From NCBI RefSeq assembly GCF_001577265.1, contig NZ_CP014517.1, positions 2,099,001 to 2,163,000 of the forward strand: 64,000 nt of DNA, given 5' to 3'. Position numbers and translations under genes: made by a program. The stretch is from Variovorax sp. PAMC 28711 (GTDB lineage Bacteria > Pseudomonadota > Gammaproteobacteria > Burkholderiales > Burkholderiaceae_C). The notes beneath the pieces were generated by a model. It was not told where the DNA came from. It ran no database searches and was given only the letters and a program-made list of their open reading frames with translations. Below are positions 2,619 to 8,333 of the stretch, one piece after another. How positions within the stretch are numbered: position 1 is the first letter of the stretch; each line of letters opens with the position of its first letter.

Positions 2619-2699
2619 GTTTTCTCTCTTCCTGGATGTCGATGCAGCCGATGCTCGCCGCCGCATCCGAAGCCCGTATGAAGTGGCGCCACGGTGCAC

Positions 2700-2715
2700 T
2701 TCACACAGACTTCAC
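2700..2715 (+). promoter_or_regulatory. Candidate CreB-binding direct repeat (cre tag)
   Basis: The sequence reads TTCAC-ACAGAC-TTCAC, an exact match to the CreB/BlrA recognition pattern TTCAC-N6-TTCAC. It is embedded in an 11-base tandem duplication (2698-2708 and 2709-2719). It lies in the 188-base divergent region between creD and the VIT/VWA gene, so one site could serve both. That CreB-type regulators bind this repeat upstream of creD is established in other bacteria; binding here is inferred. I could not assign -10 hexamers confidently, and the creBC genes are not in the window. Confidence 0.7.
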
Positions 2716-2806
2716 ACAGCCTCTTCTCGCCTTCCTCGTGGCTTCTCGCGCGGCTTCGACAGTCGCTTTTGTGCACCGTCGCACGAACCGAAGGAGAACA
2801 CCCGTC

Positions 2807-4894
2807 ATGCCAGCCGCCGCCGAAGCCGCCTTCCCCTCCACCCGCCCGGGCCGCTGGCTCTGGCTCGCCACCATGAGCCTGGCCACGCTGGGCTTCGTCG
2901 CCCTCGGCGTGCGGCCGTTGCACGCGCAGGAAGCGCCAGGCCCGCGTCTGAAAACAGAGAGCCCGTACTTTTTCGTGAAGAGCGACGATCCGTCGACCGA
3001 CCGGCTGCCGCTCAAGGGCACCGAGGTCAAGGTCCACATCTCCGGCGTGATCGCCGACGTCACGGTGACGCAGCGCTACCGCAATGAAGGCAGCCGTGCC
3101 ATCGAGGCGAAGTACGTGTTCCCGGGCTCGACCAAGGCGGCCGTGAACGGCCTCAACGTGCGGCTGGCCGATCGCCTCATCACCGCGCAGATCCGCGAGA
3201 AGAAGCAGGCGCAGATCGAGTACGACACCGCCAAGAAGGAAGGCAAGACCGCGGCGCTGCTCGAACAGCATCTGCCCAACGTGTTCCAGATGAACGTCGC
3301 CAACATCCTGCCGGGCGACGACATCCAGGTCGAGCTGCGCTACACCGAGTTGCTGGTGCCGCAAGCCGGCAACTACCAGTTCGTGTTTCCGACGGTGGTC
3401 GGCCCGCGCTACAACAGCCCGCAGTCGTCGCAGGCGAATGCGGGCTGGGTCGCGCAGCCGGTGCTGCGCGCCGACGTGGCACCCAACACCACCTTCGCCA
3501 TGAAGGTCGCGATCGACACGCCGCTCGGCATCAAGGAAGTGCGCTCGCGCACGCATGGCATCGACGTGACGACAGGCGATGAAGACAGGCACGCCGACGT
3601 GGCGCTCGCCCGGCGCGGCGAGCCGGCCGACAACCGCGACTTCGTGCTCGACTACCGCCTGGCCGGCGAGAAGATCGAATCGGGGTTGATGCTCTACAAG
3701 GGCCAGGGTGACAACGCGGAGAACTTCTTTCTCGCGATGATCGAGCCGCCCAAGTCGGTCGCTGCCAACGTCGTCACTCCGCGCGACTACATCTTCGTGG
3801 TCGACATCTCGGGCTCGATGCACGGCTTTCCGCTCGACACCGCCAAGGTGGTGCTGAAGGAACTCATCGGTGGCCTGCGCCCGAGCGACACCTTCAACGT
3901 GCTGCTGTTCTCGGGCAGCAACAAGATGCTGTCGCCGCATTCGGTGCCGGCGACGCGCGCCAACATCGACCAGGCGTTGTCGACGATCCAGAATTTTCAG
4001 GGCAGCGGCAGCACCGAACTGATTCCTGCCTTGAAGCGCGTCTACGCCGAGCCGAAGCCGGCTGACGTGTCGCGCACCGTGGTGGTCGTGACCGACGGCT
4101 ATGTCACGGTCGAGCGCGAAGCCTTCGAGCTGGTGCGCAAAAACCTCTCGCAAGCCAACGTGTTCTCGTTCGGCATCGGTTCGTCGGTGAACCGCAGCCT
4201 GATGGAAGGCATCGCACGGGCCGGTATGGGCGAGCCGTTCGTCATCACCGACCCGGTCCAGGCGACCGAACAGGCCGCACGCTTTCGCCGAATGATCGAA
4301 TCGCCGGTGCTCACCAGCGTGAAGGCGAAGTTCGAAGGCCTCGACGTCTATGACGTCGAACCCGCTGCGCTGCCCGACGTGCTCGGCGAACGCCCGGTCA
4401 TCGTGTTCGGCAAATGGCGTGGCGAGCCCAAAGGGCGCATCGTCATCGAAGGCCGGAGCGCCGACGGCCCGTATCGCCAGGAACTGAAGGTCGATGCGTC
4501 GCTGCGCCAGGACACCGCCGCGCTGCGCAGCCTGTGGGCGCGCCACCGCATCGCGTCGCTGAGCGACCAGGAGACGCTCGAGGGCGGCGATGCGTTCAAG
4601 CAGCGCATCACCGATCTCGGCCTGCAGTACAGCCTGCTCACGCAGTACACGAGCTTCATCGCGGTCGACCAGGTGGTGCGCAACCTGGCACCCGCCGACA
4701 GCACGACGGTGAACCAGCCAGTGCCGCTGCCCAAGGGCGTGAGCGAACTCGCGGTCGGCGGTGCCACGCTGGGCGCCGAAGTGCCCAGCACGCCGGAGCC
4801 GGAGGTGCTCGGCGCGATGGCGGTCGTGTTGTCGATGCTGGCCATGCTGCGCCGGCGTGCACGTCGCAACGATGTCCGTCGTTTCACCGCCTGA
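2807..4894 (+). CDS. VIT and VWA domain protein with PEP-CTERM-like sorting tail
   Basis: Predicted secreted or membrane-anchored protein of 695 residues, resembling the inter-alpha-trypsin inhibitor heavy-chain-like sortase targets of proteobacteria. A signal-anchor with an arginine before a hydrophobic helix ends at about residue 40 (HAQEAPGPR). A VIT domain follows (about 45-180), then a VWA domain with a MIDAS motif DISGSMHG near residue 332. The tail has TPEPE (near 662), a hydrophobic helix (VLGAMAVVLSMLAML) and a basic cluster RRRARR, the three-part layout of a PEP-CTERM signal. AAGGAG at 2791 supports the ATG at 2807. The exosortase gene starts 10 bases after its stop, making this its likely dedicated substrate. 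Exact function is unknown. Confidence 0.85.
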   Translation: MPAAAEAAFPSTRPGRWLWLATMSLATLGFVALGVRPLHAQEAPGPRLKTESPYFFVKSDDPSTDRLPLKGTEVKVHISGVIADVTVTQRYRNEGSRAIEAKYVFPGSTKAAVNGLNVRLADRLITAQIREKKQAQIEYDTAKKEGKTAALLEQHLPNVFQMNVANILPGDDIQVELRYTELLVPQAGNYQFVFPTVVGPRYNSPQSSQANAGWVAQPVLRADVAPNTTFAMKVAIDTPLGIKEVRSRTHGIDVTTGDEDRHADVALARRGEPADNRDFVLDYRLAGEKIESGLMLYKGQGDNAENFFLAMIEPPKSVAANVVTPRDYIFVVDISGSMHGFPLDTAKVVLKELIGGLRPSDTFNVLLFSGSNKMLSPHSVPATRANIDQALSTIQNFQGSGSTELIPALKRVYAEPKPADVSRTVVVVTDGYVTVEREAFELVRKNLSQANVFSFGIGSSVNRSLMEGIARAGMGEPFVITDPVQATEQAARFRRMIESPVLTSVKAKFEGLDVYDVEPAALPDVLGERPVIVFGKWRGEPKGRIVIEGRSADGPYRQELKVDASLRQDTAALRSLWARHRIASLSDQETLEGGDAFKQRITDLGLQYSLLTQYTSFIAVDQVVRNLAPADSTTVNQPVPLPKGVSELAVGGATLGAEVPSTPEPEVLGAMAVVLSMLAMLRRRARRNDVRRFTA

Positions 4895-4904
4895 GGAGGG
4901 GGTC

Positions 4905-5774
4905 ATGTCGCTCGCTGAAATGGCCCTGCACCGTCCCCGCGTGGTGGACTGGAGCATTCGCATCGACCGCCTGCCGGCGGCCGGCTGGCTCGCGCTGCAG
5001 TTCGCGGCCCTCACGCCCACCTGGGTGTGGATGGTGCAGCGCATGCGCGACGGCTCGGACGACCCGCTCGGTGCGCTGGCGCTGGCCGCGCTGGTGGCAC
5101 TGGTCTGGCAAGTGCGCTCGCAGTTGCGCGCGGCACCGCGGCTCGGCTGGCTGGCGCTCGCCACCGGCGGCACGCTGCTCGCCGCGCTCTGCCGCACCGG
5201 CCTCGGCCCGGTGCCGGCGCTGCCGCCACTGGCCGCCGGGCTCGTCGCGGTGCTCGCGCTGGCGTGCGGCTTGCTGGCGTTCCTGCCGCGCCGCATCGCC
5301 GCGTTGCCGGTCGTCGGCCTCGCGGTGCTGGCGTTGCCGTTGTTGTCGTCGCTGCAGTTCTACGCGGGCTACCCGCTGCGCGTGGTCACCGCCGAGGCCA
5401 GTCGCTGGCTGCTCGCGCCGGCGTTCACCGTGCTGCGTGAAGGCACCACCTTGCTGGTCGATGGGCGGCTGGTCATCGTCGATGCGCCGTGCTCGGGCGT
5501 GCAGATGGTGTGGCTCGGCTACTTCACGGCCTGCGTCGTCGCGCTGTGGGCGCAACGCACGGACCGCGCGTTCCTGTCCAGGTTGCCAATCGTGGGCCTG
5601 CTGGTGCTCGGCGGCAACATCCTGCGCAACGCCGTGCTCGTGGCGTTCGAGGGCGCCGGCGATCCGCTCGTGCCGTGGGCGCACAGTGCTTTCGGCCTCG
5701 TGGTGCTCGCCGGCGTGTGCGGCGGCATCGCCCTGACATTCATCGGAGGCCGCCGTGTCGATACCGCTCTTTGA
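4905..5774 (+). CDS. Exosortase (single-substrate type)
   Basis: Integral membrane cysteine transpeptidase-like enzyme expected to cut PEP-CTERM-type tails. The 289-residue product has about eight hydrophobic segments and the three family residues: Cys196 in DAPCSGVQMVW, Arg241 in GNILRNAVLV, and His260 in WAHSAFGLVV. GAGGAGGGGG directly precedes the ATG at 4905. The gene sits between the VIT/VWA protein with a PEP-like tail and an EpsI-like protein, as in dedicated exosortase-target pairs. There is no EPS biosynthesis locus beside it, unlike typical XrtA systems. I cannot fix the exosortase subclass (XrtN/XrtQ-like or other) from sequence alone. Confidence 0.88.
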   Translation: MSLAEMALHRPRVVDWSIRIDRLPAAGWLALQFAALTPTWVWMVQRMRDGSDDPLGALALAALVALVWQVRSQLRAAPRLGWLALATGGTLLAALCRTGLGPVPALPPLAAGLVAVLALACGLLAFLPRRIAALPVVGLAVLALPLLSSLQFYAGYPLRVVTAEASRWLLAPAFTVLREGTTLLVDGRLVIVDAPCSGVQMVWLGYFTACVVALWAQRTDRAFLSRLPIVGLLVLGGNILRNAVLVAFEGAGDPLVPWAHSAFGLVVLAGVCGGIALTFIGGRRVDTAL

Positions 5775-6324
5775 TCGCTGGTTCGCCAATCGCTTCGTCA
5801 ACCGCGCGTTGCACAAGGCGGTCTTCGGCGGCGCGATGCTGATGTGCCTGGCCCTGGCGACCGTGAGCGCATGGCGGCCCGCCGCCGCCCCGGGCGCCGT
5901 GGCGGCGTTCCACGAATGGCCGAAGGAATGGGATGGGGCGCCGTTGCGGCCGTTGGCGCTGAGCGCGGTCGAACACCGTTTCGCGCAGCAGTTTCCCGGT
6001 GCGATCGCCCGCATGACCGACGGCCAGCAGATGCTCGTGCTGCGCCAGGTCGTCGCACCGACGCGCATGCTTCACCCGGCGGCCGACTGCTACCGCGCGC
6101 TCGGCTACCGCATTCTTCAAGCGCGGTTGGAGCGAGATGCCCAGGCGCGGCTCTGGCGGTGTTTCGAGGCGCAACGCGGCCGCGGGCAAACCCTGCGTGT
6201 GTGCGAGCGCATCGTGGGTGCCGACGGGCTCGCTTTCACCGACACTTCAGCCTGGTACTGGGCGGCTGCGAGCGGACAATCGAAAGGCCCGTGGCAAGCC
6301 GTCACCACCGCGACCCCGCTTTGA
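5755..6324 (+). CDS. EpsI-like (DUF3485-type) exosortase-associated protein
   Basis: A 189-residue protein with one N-terminal membrane helix (AVFGGAMLMCLALATVSAW) and a probable periplasmic domain. The segment MLHPAADCYRALGYRI resembles the conserved LHxPxxCYxxxGW core of EpsI/DUF3485 proteins, which are encoded next to or fused to exosortases. That assignment rests on this short motif plus context. Translation starts at a GTG at 5755 preceded by GGAGG, so the gene overlaps the end of the exosortase gene by 20 bases, indicating translational coupling. It probably supports exosortase processing; the mechanism is unknown for the family. Confidence 0.65.
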   Translation: MSIPLFDRWFANRFVNRALHKAVFGGAMLMCLALATVSAWRPAAAPGAVAAFHEWPKEWDGAPLRPLALSAVEHRFAQQFPGAIARMTDGQQMLVLRQVVAPTRMLHPAADCYRALGYRILQARLERDAQARLWRCFEAQRGRGQTLRVCERIVGADGLAFTDTSAWYWAAASGQSKGPWQAVTTATPL

Positions 6325-6336
6325 AGAATCGACCCC

Positions 6337-7584
6337 TTGAAGAAGATCCTGCGCTCCCTGCTGTTCGTGTGCCTGGCATTGGTGGTGACCGCCATCGTCG
6401 CCGTCGTGCTGATCGTCAAGATCGTGCTGGCACCGGCCGCGGGCGAATGGTCGAGCCGGGTGCAGGCAGGCCCGGTGGCGTTCGACATGGGCGTGCCGAC
6501 GGCACTCCGCGTGGCCACCGCGCCCTGGTTCGCGCCGCGGCTCGACGGCCATTCGATCGACACGCGCTACGGCCCGGTGCGCTTTGCATGGCGCGAAGCC
6601 AGCCAGACACTCGAACTGGTCTGCGCGCCCTGCAGCGCCACAGTGCCCGCGCTCGGCGCGAACCCGATCCGGCTGGAGCGGCTGCTGATCACTGCCCGGC
6701 GCGACGTCGCCGTTCTCAACGGAACGCTCGAAGCCACCCACGACAGCGCGCCACCGCTGCGAGGGCGCTGGGATGGTCGCCTCACGCAGAAGACGCTGCA
6801 GCTCGACATCGACATGGCTGAAGCGCCGATCGCGCAGTGGTACGCGGTGTTCTTGCCGCAGCTGCCCGAGCTGAAACGCGCCCGCATCGGTGGCACGCTG
6901 GCGCTCAAGGCCCAGCTCGCGCTGCCGGCCGACAGCTTCACGCTGCAGCCGACACTGTCGCAGTTCGCCGTGGAGGGGCTCGGCACCGAAGCCATGCTGA
7001 ATGCGCGCACCAGCTGCGGCCCATCGGCCCGGCTCGGCGTTGAGAGCTGGTTGGCCCGCGCCGTACTCGCGGCCGAAGACCAGCGCTTCTTCCAGCACCC
7101 GGGCTACGACCTCACCGAGCTCGGCGCCGCTGCGGCCGCCAACCAGAAAGCCGGCCAGGTCGAGCGCGGCGGCAGCACCCTCACGCAACAGCTCGTCAAG
7201 CTGCTGGTGACCGGCAGCGAGCGCACCGGCGAGCGCAAGCTGCGCGAACTGCTCTACGCAGTCGAGATGGAACAGACGCTGGGCAAGGCGCGCATCCTGC
7301 AGCTCTATCTGGACAACGCGCCCTGGGGCGACGGCGCGTGCGGCGCCGAGGCCGCGGCAAGGCGCTACTTCAAGCGCAGTGCGTCCAAGCTCGAACCCGC
7401 GCAGGCCGTGTGGCTCGCCGCGATGCTCAACAACCCGCAGGCCGCATTCGAGAAGTGGCAGCGCGAAGGCAGCATCGACGCCGCGCGCGCGAAATGGGTG
7501 GCCGACGGCGTGCGGGGCATCACCAAGGTGCAGCGCGAGAGCTTGCTGAAGAGCGTGGCGGCGGCCAGGTTCGCTGCGCCATGA
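6337..7584 (+). CDS. Membrane-anchored GT51 peptidoglycan transglycosylase with unassigned N-terminal region
   Basis: The 415-residue product has an N-terminal membrane helix (residues about 5-30), an unassigned region of about 190 residues, and a C-terminal GT51 domain from about residue 235. Family motifs are complete: AAEDQRFFQHPGYD with the catalytic Glu, RGGSTLTQQLVKLL, ERKLRELLYAVEMEQ and KARILQLYLDNAPWG. No transpeptidase domain follows, so it is monofunctional, but it is much longer than MtgA (about 230 residues). The start is TTG at 6337 with no strong Shine-Dalgarno, 12 bases after the preceding stop. It belongs to the exosortase operon, suggesting that the target's anchoring or action is linked to cell-wall synthesis. 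Confidence 0.8.
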   Translation: MKKILRSLLFVCLALVVTAIVAVVLIVKIVLAPAAGEWSSRVQAGPVAFDMGVPTALRVATAPWFAPRLDGHSIDTRYGPVRFAWREASQTLELVCAPCSATVPALGANPIRLERLLITARRDVAVLNGTLEATHDSAPPLRGRWDGRLTQKTLQLDIDMAEAPIAQWYAVFLPQLPELKRARIGGTLALKAQLALPADSFTLQPTLSQFAVEGLGTEAMLNARTSCGPSARLGVESWLARAVLAAEDQRFFQHPGYDLTELGAAAAANQKAGQVERGGSTLTQQLVKLLVTGSERTGERKLRELLYAVEMEQTLGKARILQLYLDNAPWGDGACGAEAAARRYFKRSASKLEPAQAVWLAAMLNNPQAAFEKWQREGSIDAARAKWVADGVRGITKVQRESLLKSVAAARFAAP

Positions 7585-8333
7585 ACGATTGCGACGTGAA
7601 AGCGATCGAGCGCGCCACCGTGGCGGCACTCGGTGCGCAAGCCGTCGAGGAACACGGCGGCTGGCTGCTTCCCTTCGACACCGGCACGATCGCGCGCGCC
7701 AAGGCGGCCGTGCCGCTCGGCCACGGCGCGTTCGACGCCTCGCCGGCCGAGACCGTCGATTTCGTCCAGGCGCGCTACGGGGCGCGGGGCATGCCGACGT
7801 TGTTCCGGCTGGCGGACGTGCCGTCGCTCGGGCCGATGCGCAGCGCCTTGCAGCACAAGGGCTGGATCGCCGACCGGCCGACCTGGGTGCTGACGGCCCG
7901 CGCACAGGCGATGCGGCGCGTTTCGGAATCCGCATCCGCCACGGTCGACCCGGCGGCCGACGATGCCTGGGCGGCGCTCTTCCTGGGCGAGGGCGTCGAT
8001 CCGGTCGACGGCGCGAGCCGCGTGGCATCGCTGCGCCGGGCCATCGATGCGCGCTATGTCAGCGTGCGGGACGGCGGCCGCGCAGTGGCGTGCGGCATGC
8101 TGGCGTTCGGCCACGGCTGGGCCAGCGTGCACGGCATGCGAACCGACATGGCCGAGCGCGGTCGCGGGCTGGCCGGCCGGGTGCTCGCGACCATGGCCGA
8201 AGTCGCACGGGCACGCGGCGTCGAGCGCGTCTTCCTGCAGGTCGAGGAAAACAACGCGGCGGCGCGCTCGCTCTACCGCCGCGCCAGCTTCAGCGATGCC
8301 TGGCGCTATCGCTACTGGCAGCACCCCGATTGA
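7581..8333 (+). CDS. GNAT family N-acetyltransferase
   Basis: A 250-residue protein with a C-terminal GNAT domain. The acetyl-CoA loop region reads RTDMAERGRGLAGRVLATM, followed by VFLQVEENNAAARSLYRRASF, the usual beta5-alpha5 signature ending in the R(A/G)xF motif. The N-terminal half (residues 1-110) is less conserved but looks like the degenerate first GNAT repeat of two-domain members. The substrate cannot be predicted. ATGA overlap with the upstream transglycosylase gene implies co-transcription with the exosortase operon, though functional linkage is unproven. Confidence 0.8.
   Translation: MNDCDVKAIERATVAALGAQAVEEHGGWLLPFDTGTIARAKAAVPLGHGAFDASPAETVDFVQARYGARGMPTLFRLADVPSLGPMRSALQHKGWIADRPTWVLTARAQAMRRVSESASATVDPAADDAWAALFLGEGVDPVDGASRVASLRRAIDARYVSVRDGGRAVACGMLAFGHGWASVHGMRTDMAERGRGLAGRVLATMAEVARARGVERVFLQVEENNAAARSLYRRASFSDAWRYRYWQHPD

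Follow-up and report, generated by a model that had tools for sequence, protein, structure and literature searches.

A probable CreBC-controlled exosortase Q module with a single PEP-tailed VIT/VWA target and a GT51 glycosyltransferase in Variovorax sp. PAMC 28711

The PEP-CTERM/exosortase system is described as associated with exopolysaccharide (EPS), with eight targets in the median genome and a sigma-54-type element upstream (PMC1569441); the molecule to which an exosortase links its substrate is still discussed as a polysaccharide 'or some other molecule' (PMC12188702). The promoters of the Cre regulon, on the other side, carry the cre/blr tag (PMC3660660), which has the form TTCACN6TTCAC, lies upstream of creD and is critical for the binding of activated CreB/BlrA (PMC4689548), and the members of this regulon include creD and, in Aeromonas, beta-lactamases (PMC3660660, PMC4689548). 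Here we describe a locus in which these two themes meet. It lies in a stretch of 64,000 nucleotides of Variovorax sp. PAMC 28711 (contig NZ_CP014517.1, positions 2,099,001 to 2,163,000; called the window throughout) and comprises genes for a VIT/VWA protein, an exosortase, an EpsI-like protein and a GT51 glycosyltransferase, which we consider rather more probably than not to form an envelope-stress operon under CreBC control, consisting of an exosortase pair and a GT51 enzyme dedicated to it.

The four genes are tightly spaced on the plus strand at 2807-7584 of the window and encode, in order, the VIT/VWA surface protein (2807-4894, 695 residues), exosortase Q or XrtQ (4905-5774, 289 residues), the EpsI-like partner (5755-6324, 189 residues, with a GTG start and a 20-base overlap with xrtQ) and the GT51 peptidoglycan glycosyltransferase (6337-7584, 415 residues, with a TTG start), the starts having been picked by eye from purine-rich sites upstream. 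All of the Pfam domains found were over cut-off: VIT at 115 bits, VWA_3 at 70, Exosortase_EpsH at 82 and Transgly (PF00912) at 157. An earlier sequence-only reading of the window had reported this packed, co-directional set, and in that it was borne out; the region it delimited from 2619 does contain the module, but 2619 is merely the first base past creD, and the regulatory site described below lies in the intergenic region 2619-2806.

The exosortase is a clear match to NCBIfam model NF012182 (exosortase Q), with 392.1 bits against a cut-off of 270. Cys196, Arg241 and His260, the three active-site residues that had been read from the sequence, are invariant in all 22 aligned exosortases (the alignments used here, A1-A5, drew on chosen subsets of loci), and the earlier numbering of Cys196 fits because the enzyme has 289 residues from the chosen start. 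Of the exosortase T model, the EpsI-like protein matches just the C-terminal portion (41.8 bits); we take it to be the partner of XrtQ because the two are fused into single frames in some relatives (L100:9959-11350, L204:7803-9233 and L112:9905-11314), an arrangement that resembles the layout of exosortase T. In two distant relatives (L205:7162-10955 and L206:7710-11440) a divergent XrtQ-like enzyme, scoring 129 bits in L205, and an EpsI-like protein are paired with another PEP-tailed VIT protein, some 800 residues long, whose gene has a cre/blr tag just upstream; these are possibly a second type of CreB-linked dedicated exosortase.

The VIT/VWA protein has a signal-peptide-like start (judged by eye) and, in its C-terminal region (...VPSTPEPEVLGAMAVVLSMLAMLRRRARR...), the layout of a PEP-CTERM-type target, namely a PEP triplet, a transmembrane helix (judged from the sequence) and a basic cluster. 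The sorting tail, delimited by alignment, is encoded at 4781-4891 on the plus strand, and its PEP triplet is invariant across 29 aligned tails; the PEP-CTERM-like tail of the earlier reading is thus as described. The generic Pfam PEP-CTERM model, PF07589, did not list this tail even at an E value of 1, nor did any protein of the genome exceed the cut-off of that model. Searching the genome, a single contig of 4.32 Mb, with a profile of the 29 VIT tails gave the VIT/VWA tail at E 2.4e-21 and the next best match at 0.86, while PF09721 found exactly one exosortase. In its host genome the exosortase is therefore dedicated, with one enzyme and one such tail, and the single target that had been noticed beside the enzyme held good when many other PEP-CTERM proteins were looked for. 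Among 80 named relatives that served as the locus set, many of them closely related Variovorax, VIT adjoins xrtQ in all 78 loci with room for it. The VIT/VWA protein itself scores 421 bits against TIGR03788 ('marine proteobacterial sortase target'), below the cut-off of 551.65. A strict regular expression for the metal ion-dependent adhesion site (MIDAS) matched 60 of 79 VIT proteins, and the proteins of L091, L103 and L112 do not fit its first part in the form used. Two xrtQ genomes have a second VIT protein that matches TIGR03788 and lies away from xrtQ (G015:C1:2770953-2772683 and G126:C111:84110-85837).

Between creD and the VIT gene, at 2700-2715 on the plus strand, lies TTCACACAGACTTCAC, a perfect cre/blr tag (TTCAC-N6-TTCAC) and a predicted CreB binding site. 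It is the sole match in the 64 kb, where shuffles led us to expect 0.03, and the whole genome has four matches, compared with one for the pattern read in reverse. The other three were considered as further members of the regulon and set aside, each lying inside a long open frame (by eye). In the locus set the exact tag is found at most 400 bases upstream of VIT in 72 of the 76 loci that could be judged (L051, L078 and L089 are cut off and L090 is without VIT), and the same loci, 1.41 Mb in all, contain two other copies. One of these, at 7675 in L104, is a VIT-upstream tag too, although L104 is counted as a miss among the 76 because its VIT start had been misplaced. Thinning the loci by XrtQ identity left the proportion high (30/32 below 80%, 13/14 below 70% and 8/9 below 65%), and the tag is retained while its flanks diverge, in a profile made from tag-bearing loci, which stands at 100% at the tag by construction.

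The regulator genes themselves adjoin the locus to the left of the window, creB at -3534 to -2692 (304.6 bits against NF008296, cut-off 273) and creC at about -2695 to -1232 (572.6 bits against NF008312, cut-off 356). A creC homologue is present in the upstream flank of 58 of the 67 loci with more than 7 kb upstream (a hand count), and both creB and creC in 43; in several loci, for example L094, L096, L098 and L099, the order is creC, tag, VIT. The conserved site and the adjoining creBC genes together lead us to predict that the module is controlled by CreB. At VIT loci of the sortase type, discussed below, the tag was found upstream of VIT in none of 30 (of which L176 and L180 have less than 1.5 kb upstream). 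One of the sortase-type regions, L194, has a single copy of the tag within a kinase frame.

The fourth gene encodes a protein with an N-terminal helix, a beta-rich N-terminal domain and a C-terminal GT51 domain, which falls below the cut-offs of every GT51 model that it matched. A CxxC motif in the N-terminal domain is invariant in 36/36 aligned proteins, and Glu247 and Glu304, which we take to be the catalytic glutamates of GT51, are each kept in 35 of the 36. Of the 70 loci with at least 2.4 kb past xrtQ (the other 10 being too short), 62 have a GT51 homologue in that space. We also looked at the co-occurrence of the two genes in 200 genomes of the family. NF012182 matched 38 of these, from which G033 (28.6 bits) and G170 (23.4 bits) were dropped as other exosortases, and G148, G118 and G027 are partial matches among the remaining 36. 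The GT51 N-terminal domain was found in 34 genomes, 33 of them among the 36 with xrtQ and one among the 164 others; xrtQ occurs alone in three (G035 and the partial matches G148 and G027), the GT51 domain alone in one (G129) and neither in 163. Fisher's test gives 4e-33, kinship among the genomes being ignored. In all 33 genomes with both, xrtQ and the GT51 domain are on the same strand and 538-1147 bases apart, and the domain is present in just 24 of the 141 genera sampled. The earlier reading named two observations that would refute it, many other PEP-CTERM proteins in the genome and the absence of GT51 beside most homologous exosortases, and for this genome both came out in its favour.

In a wider sample of 300 genomes of the order, xrtQ was over cut-off in four and the GT51 domain was found in four. 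G743, from another family, has VIT, xrtQ (208 bits, below cut-off), epsI, GT51 and the tag, the identical gene order with the tag being seen in another family of the order (L203); in G837, where xrtQ is over cut-off, neither GT51 nor the tag was found. Two arrangements are worth recording in their own right. In G129 (L147:7961-9590) GT51 stands directly behind creB-creC, with the cre/blr tag between creC and GT51, and VIT, xrtQ and epsI are missing there; in G035 (L148:7039-8484) the tag is upstream of VIT, and a retron-type reverse transcriptase gene, convergent to epsI, occupies the place of GT51.

The mechanism that we envisage begins with CreC, which would detect cell-wall or envelope stress, whereupon phosphorylated CreB would bind the tag at 2700-2715 and switch on creD leftwards and VIT-xrtQ-epsI-GT51 rightwards. 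The VIT/VWA protein would be exported by the Sec route and stay anchored in the inner membrane through its C-terminal helix until XrtQ and its EpsI-like partner, if they behave as other members of their families, cleave it at the PEP box and transfer it to an acceptor. GT51 would polymerise lipid II at the same sites, as its family suggests, and its N-terminal domain, lying between the membrane anchor and the catalytic domain, probably docks the enzyme to the module. In this way a VWA protein serving adhesion or as a scaffold would be deposited at sites of wall damage along with freshly made glycan. Such a protein, induced by stress and produced with a sorting enzyme and a glycan polymerase of its own, fits the signal described in the aeruginosa work (PMC2654508). 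A stronger version, in which lipid II, or a glycan derived from it, receives the VIT/VWA protein from XrtQ and GT51 then polymerises the product into peptidoglycan, all under CreBC, seems to us improbable; it would make the system an exosortase parallel to the sortase A route of Gram-positive bacteria, with an adhesion protein covalently attached to a Gram-negative wall.

Several observations weigh against a module as tight as the one proposed. Eight of the 70 loci have no GT51 gene beside xrtQ, four of them Variovorax-like, namely L069, L074 and L076 (Variovorax) and L072, a Proteobacteria metagenome-assembled genome (MAG) so classed because its match scores are near those of L069 and L074; the others are a betaproteobacterial MAG (L089), two Azoarcus MAGs (L091 and L100) and Panacagrimonas (L112). 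With G035, which also has xrtQ and no GT51, these loci mean that the sorting pair can exist without an adjacent GT51, so the GT51 neighbour noted earlier is found beside most homologous exosortases but is not obligatory. The Fisher value is overstated because relatives are not independent, and diverged GT51 copies may have been missed because the profile was built from xrtQ-adjacent copies and covered at most 14 candidates per genome. The tag was not found in L112 or L204, and L101 and L110 have versions with one mismatch. The dedication seen in the host genome is likewise looser elsewhere. PF07589 was run against 32 of the 33 genomes with xrtQ over cut-off (the remaining one, the window's own, was scanned separately); every one of the 32 had matches at E 1 or better, and 21 had a match above the model's cut-off. 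Thirteen of the 32 carry a further exosortase and 19 have XrtQ alone, so that an over-cut-off PEP-CTERM match is present in at least eight of these 19; at E 1 the matches number 1-8 in the 19, 3-37 in the 12 where a second exosortase was matched and 21 in the one with three exosortases. The matches are partly the VIT tails themselves (e.g. in G146). In G098 (99% complete) the over-cut-off match is not the VIT tail, being on C12 with xrtQ on C3, and among the matches listed G104 (76% complete) and G163 (70% complete) have ones other than the VIT tail; further PEP-CTERM proteins may exist in xrtQ genomes beyond the matches listed (E about 1.7e-4). One exosortase for one target thus describes the host genome, but across xrtQ genomes it is a tendency and not a law.

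The proposal has to be set against simpler explanations, of which the most serious is that the exosortase pair and GT51 share their regulation and nothing more, acting on the envelope independently, with no physical or chemical coupling, as parts of a CreBC bundle. We regard this as a strong contender, a little short of an even chance: G129 has GT51 behind creB-creC and the tag in the absence of VIT, xrtQ and epsI, the eight loci above keep the sorting pair with no adjacent GT51, and creD and a class A penicillin-binding protein (PBP) are both in the neighbourhood in 36 of the 67 loci with more than 7 kb upstream. Against it, the GT51 N-terminal domain is almost exclusive to xrtQ genomes (33 of 34 carriers). 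In addition, the GT51 homologue of L076 (L076:19546-20829), displaced to about 9 kb downstream, has lost the catalytic Glu and related motif residues; L069 also has a copy about 9 kb downstream, which is cut by the locus end.

Ordinary exosortase biology, in which the VIT/VWA protein is anchored to a lipid or the outer surface and GT51 and creD are neighbours through vertical inheritance of a Comamonadaceae-like arrangement, would account for an enzyme of a known family in a locus set rich in closely related Variovorax, and it would agree with exosortases elsewhere, which sit in EPS loci, and with PEP-CTERM proteins that are reported to hold EPS to the cell (PMC12188702). We think it unlikely. 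The GNAT-type acetyltransferase gene that comes next (7581-8333, overlapping the end of GT51), which we considered and rejected as a fifth member, is retained in just 23 of 68 loci compared with 62 of 70 for GT51, so the module ends sharply. Nor does vertical inheritance sit well with a GT51 domain that is present in so few genera and yet tracks xrtQ, or with a tag that is kept while its flanks have diverged. Very unlikely, finally, is the explanation that the tag serves creD alone and stands before VIT as a by-product of the divergent order. The published tag does lie upstream of creD (PMC4689548), and creD is divergent here; the 72 tag-bearing loci, however, comprise 40 with a creD hit and 32 with none in the available DNA, so the tag is not solely creD's own site, and the same is indicated by the order creC, tag, VIT in L094, L096, L098 and L099 and by G129, where the tag precedes GT51. 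We therefore retain the CreBC-controlled module with its dedicated GT51 as the favoured reading; as for the sequence-only reading, its observation is confirmed and its interpretation partly supported.

The surroundings can be described briefly. creD, encoding the inner membrane protein CreD, lies at 1125-2618 on the minus strand, divergent from the module; its score of 465 bits against NF008712 (cut-off 275) comes from the longer frame 1125-2699, the start having been placed at 2618. Behind it, on the same strand, the amino-terminal part of a class A PBP of the PBP1A family occupies 1-1125, and the gene leaves the window leftwards; the whole open frame, from which its coordinates are taken (L154:11771-14125, corresponding to -1229 to 1125 of the window), scores 612 bits against TIGR02074 (cut-off 509). 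The overall order is thus creB and creC, then PBP1A and creD running leftwards, then VIT, xrtQ, epsI and GT51 running rightwards. No EPS-type family was found among the products of creB, creC, PBP1A and creD, or among 10 window proteins selected between 8.4 and 23.7 kb, two of them without any family match, in agreement with the earlier statement that the locus has no EPS genes. In one draft genome (L092:6373-12835) creD, VIT, xrtQ and GT51 are each split over two frames, apparently through errors in the sequence.

With a single exosortase, a single substrate, one dedicated GT51 and one exact tag lying outside any long open frame, the genome offers a minimal system that can be tested. If the favoured reading is true, exosortases move from exopolysaccharide loci into the stress biology of peptidoglycan, and, as the conserved site suggests, the set would be turned on by a known sensor of envelope stress, giving both the sensor and the enzyme class a testable job. 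Should the lipid II version be true, wall stress would cause an adhesion protein to be displayed covalently on a Gram-negative wall.

Compared with the PEP-CTERM/exosortase system (PMC1569441), the locus shares the PEP box, the membrane helix, the basic end and an exosortase with conserved catalytic residues. It differs in having one target, in the lack of an EPS-type family among the 10 neighbours scanned, and in the CreB site upstream, the sigma-54-type element not having been scanned for. The enzyme is a clear member of exosortase Q, over the curated cut-off and with its Cys/Arg/His site intact, this comparison being by model name and scores. A VIT target has also been named with an exosortase in the Exosortase N system (TIGR04476, with the target TIGR04477, 'XrtN system VIT domain-containing protein'); XrtQ, however, scores 37.7 against the cut-off of 200 for that model, and the VIT protein of the window has no TIGR04477 hit at E 0.01.

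The dedicated sortase system of proteobacteria (class GN sortase TIGR03784, target TIGR03788 and regulators TIGR03785/TIGR03787) likewise combines a VIT/VWA protein, a transpeptidase and a two-component system, and we compared the module with 18 such regions, picked among the best of 58 other genomes in which TIGR03788 was matched. CreB- and CreC-like hits occur in 12 of the 18; of two regions tested by model, L188 has the named regulators and L197 the named sortase. The systems differ in that the enzyme is a sortase and not an exosortase, in the absence of the tag upstream of VIT and in their regulators, those neighbouring the module scoring 134.1 against TIGR03787 (cut-off 335.7) and 99.7 against TIGR03785 (cut-off 612.2). 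They also have no GT51 of the module's type. That GT51 might generally accompany dedicated sorting enzymes was considered and rejected as a shared rule, since it was found in four of the 18 regions and was PBP1B in all four. In two of the class GN sortase-type regions (L188:10262-12589 and L192:10406-12736) PBP1B starts no more than about 0.8 kb after VIT, possibly by chance.

With the CreBC/BlrAB regulon the locus has in common CreB, CreC, CreD and a perfect TTCACN6TTCAC tag. Its GT51 protein, at 140.9 bits, does not reach the cut-off of 182.65 for MtgA (TIGR02070) and differs from both MtgA and the class A PBPs by the extra N-terminal beta domain with its CxxC motif. In the literature searched, which covered few subscription papers, we found neither exosortase Q or XrtQ nor an exosortase joined to CreBC or to a VIT domain; the one paper to mention an exosortase together with a transglycosylase and an operon is on a Dechloromonas genome. 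We have not found the combination in print, which agrees with the earlier view of an undescribed system, but its parts are known: the exosortase is of a named type, dedicated VIT pairs have been named for XrtN and the class GN sortase, and CreBC and its tag are already known.

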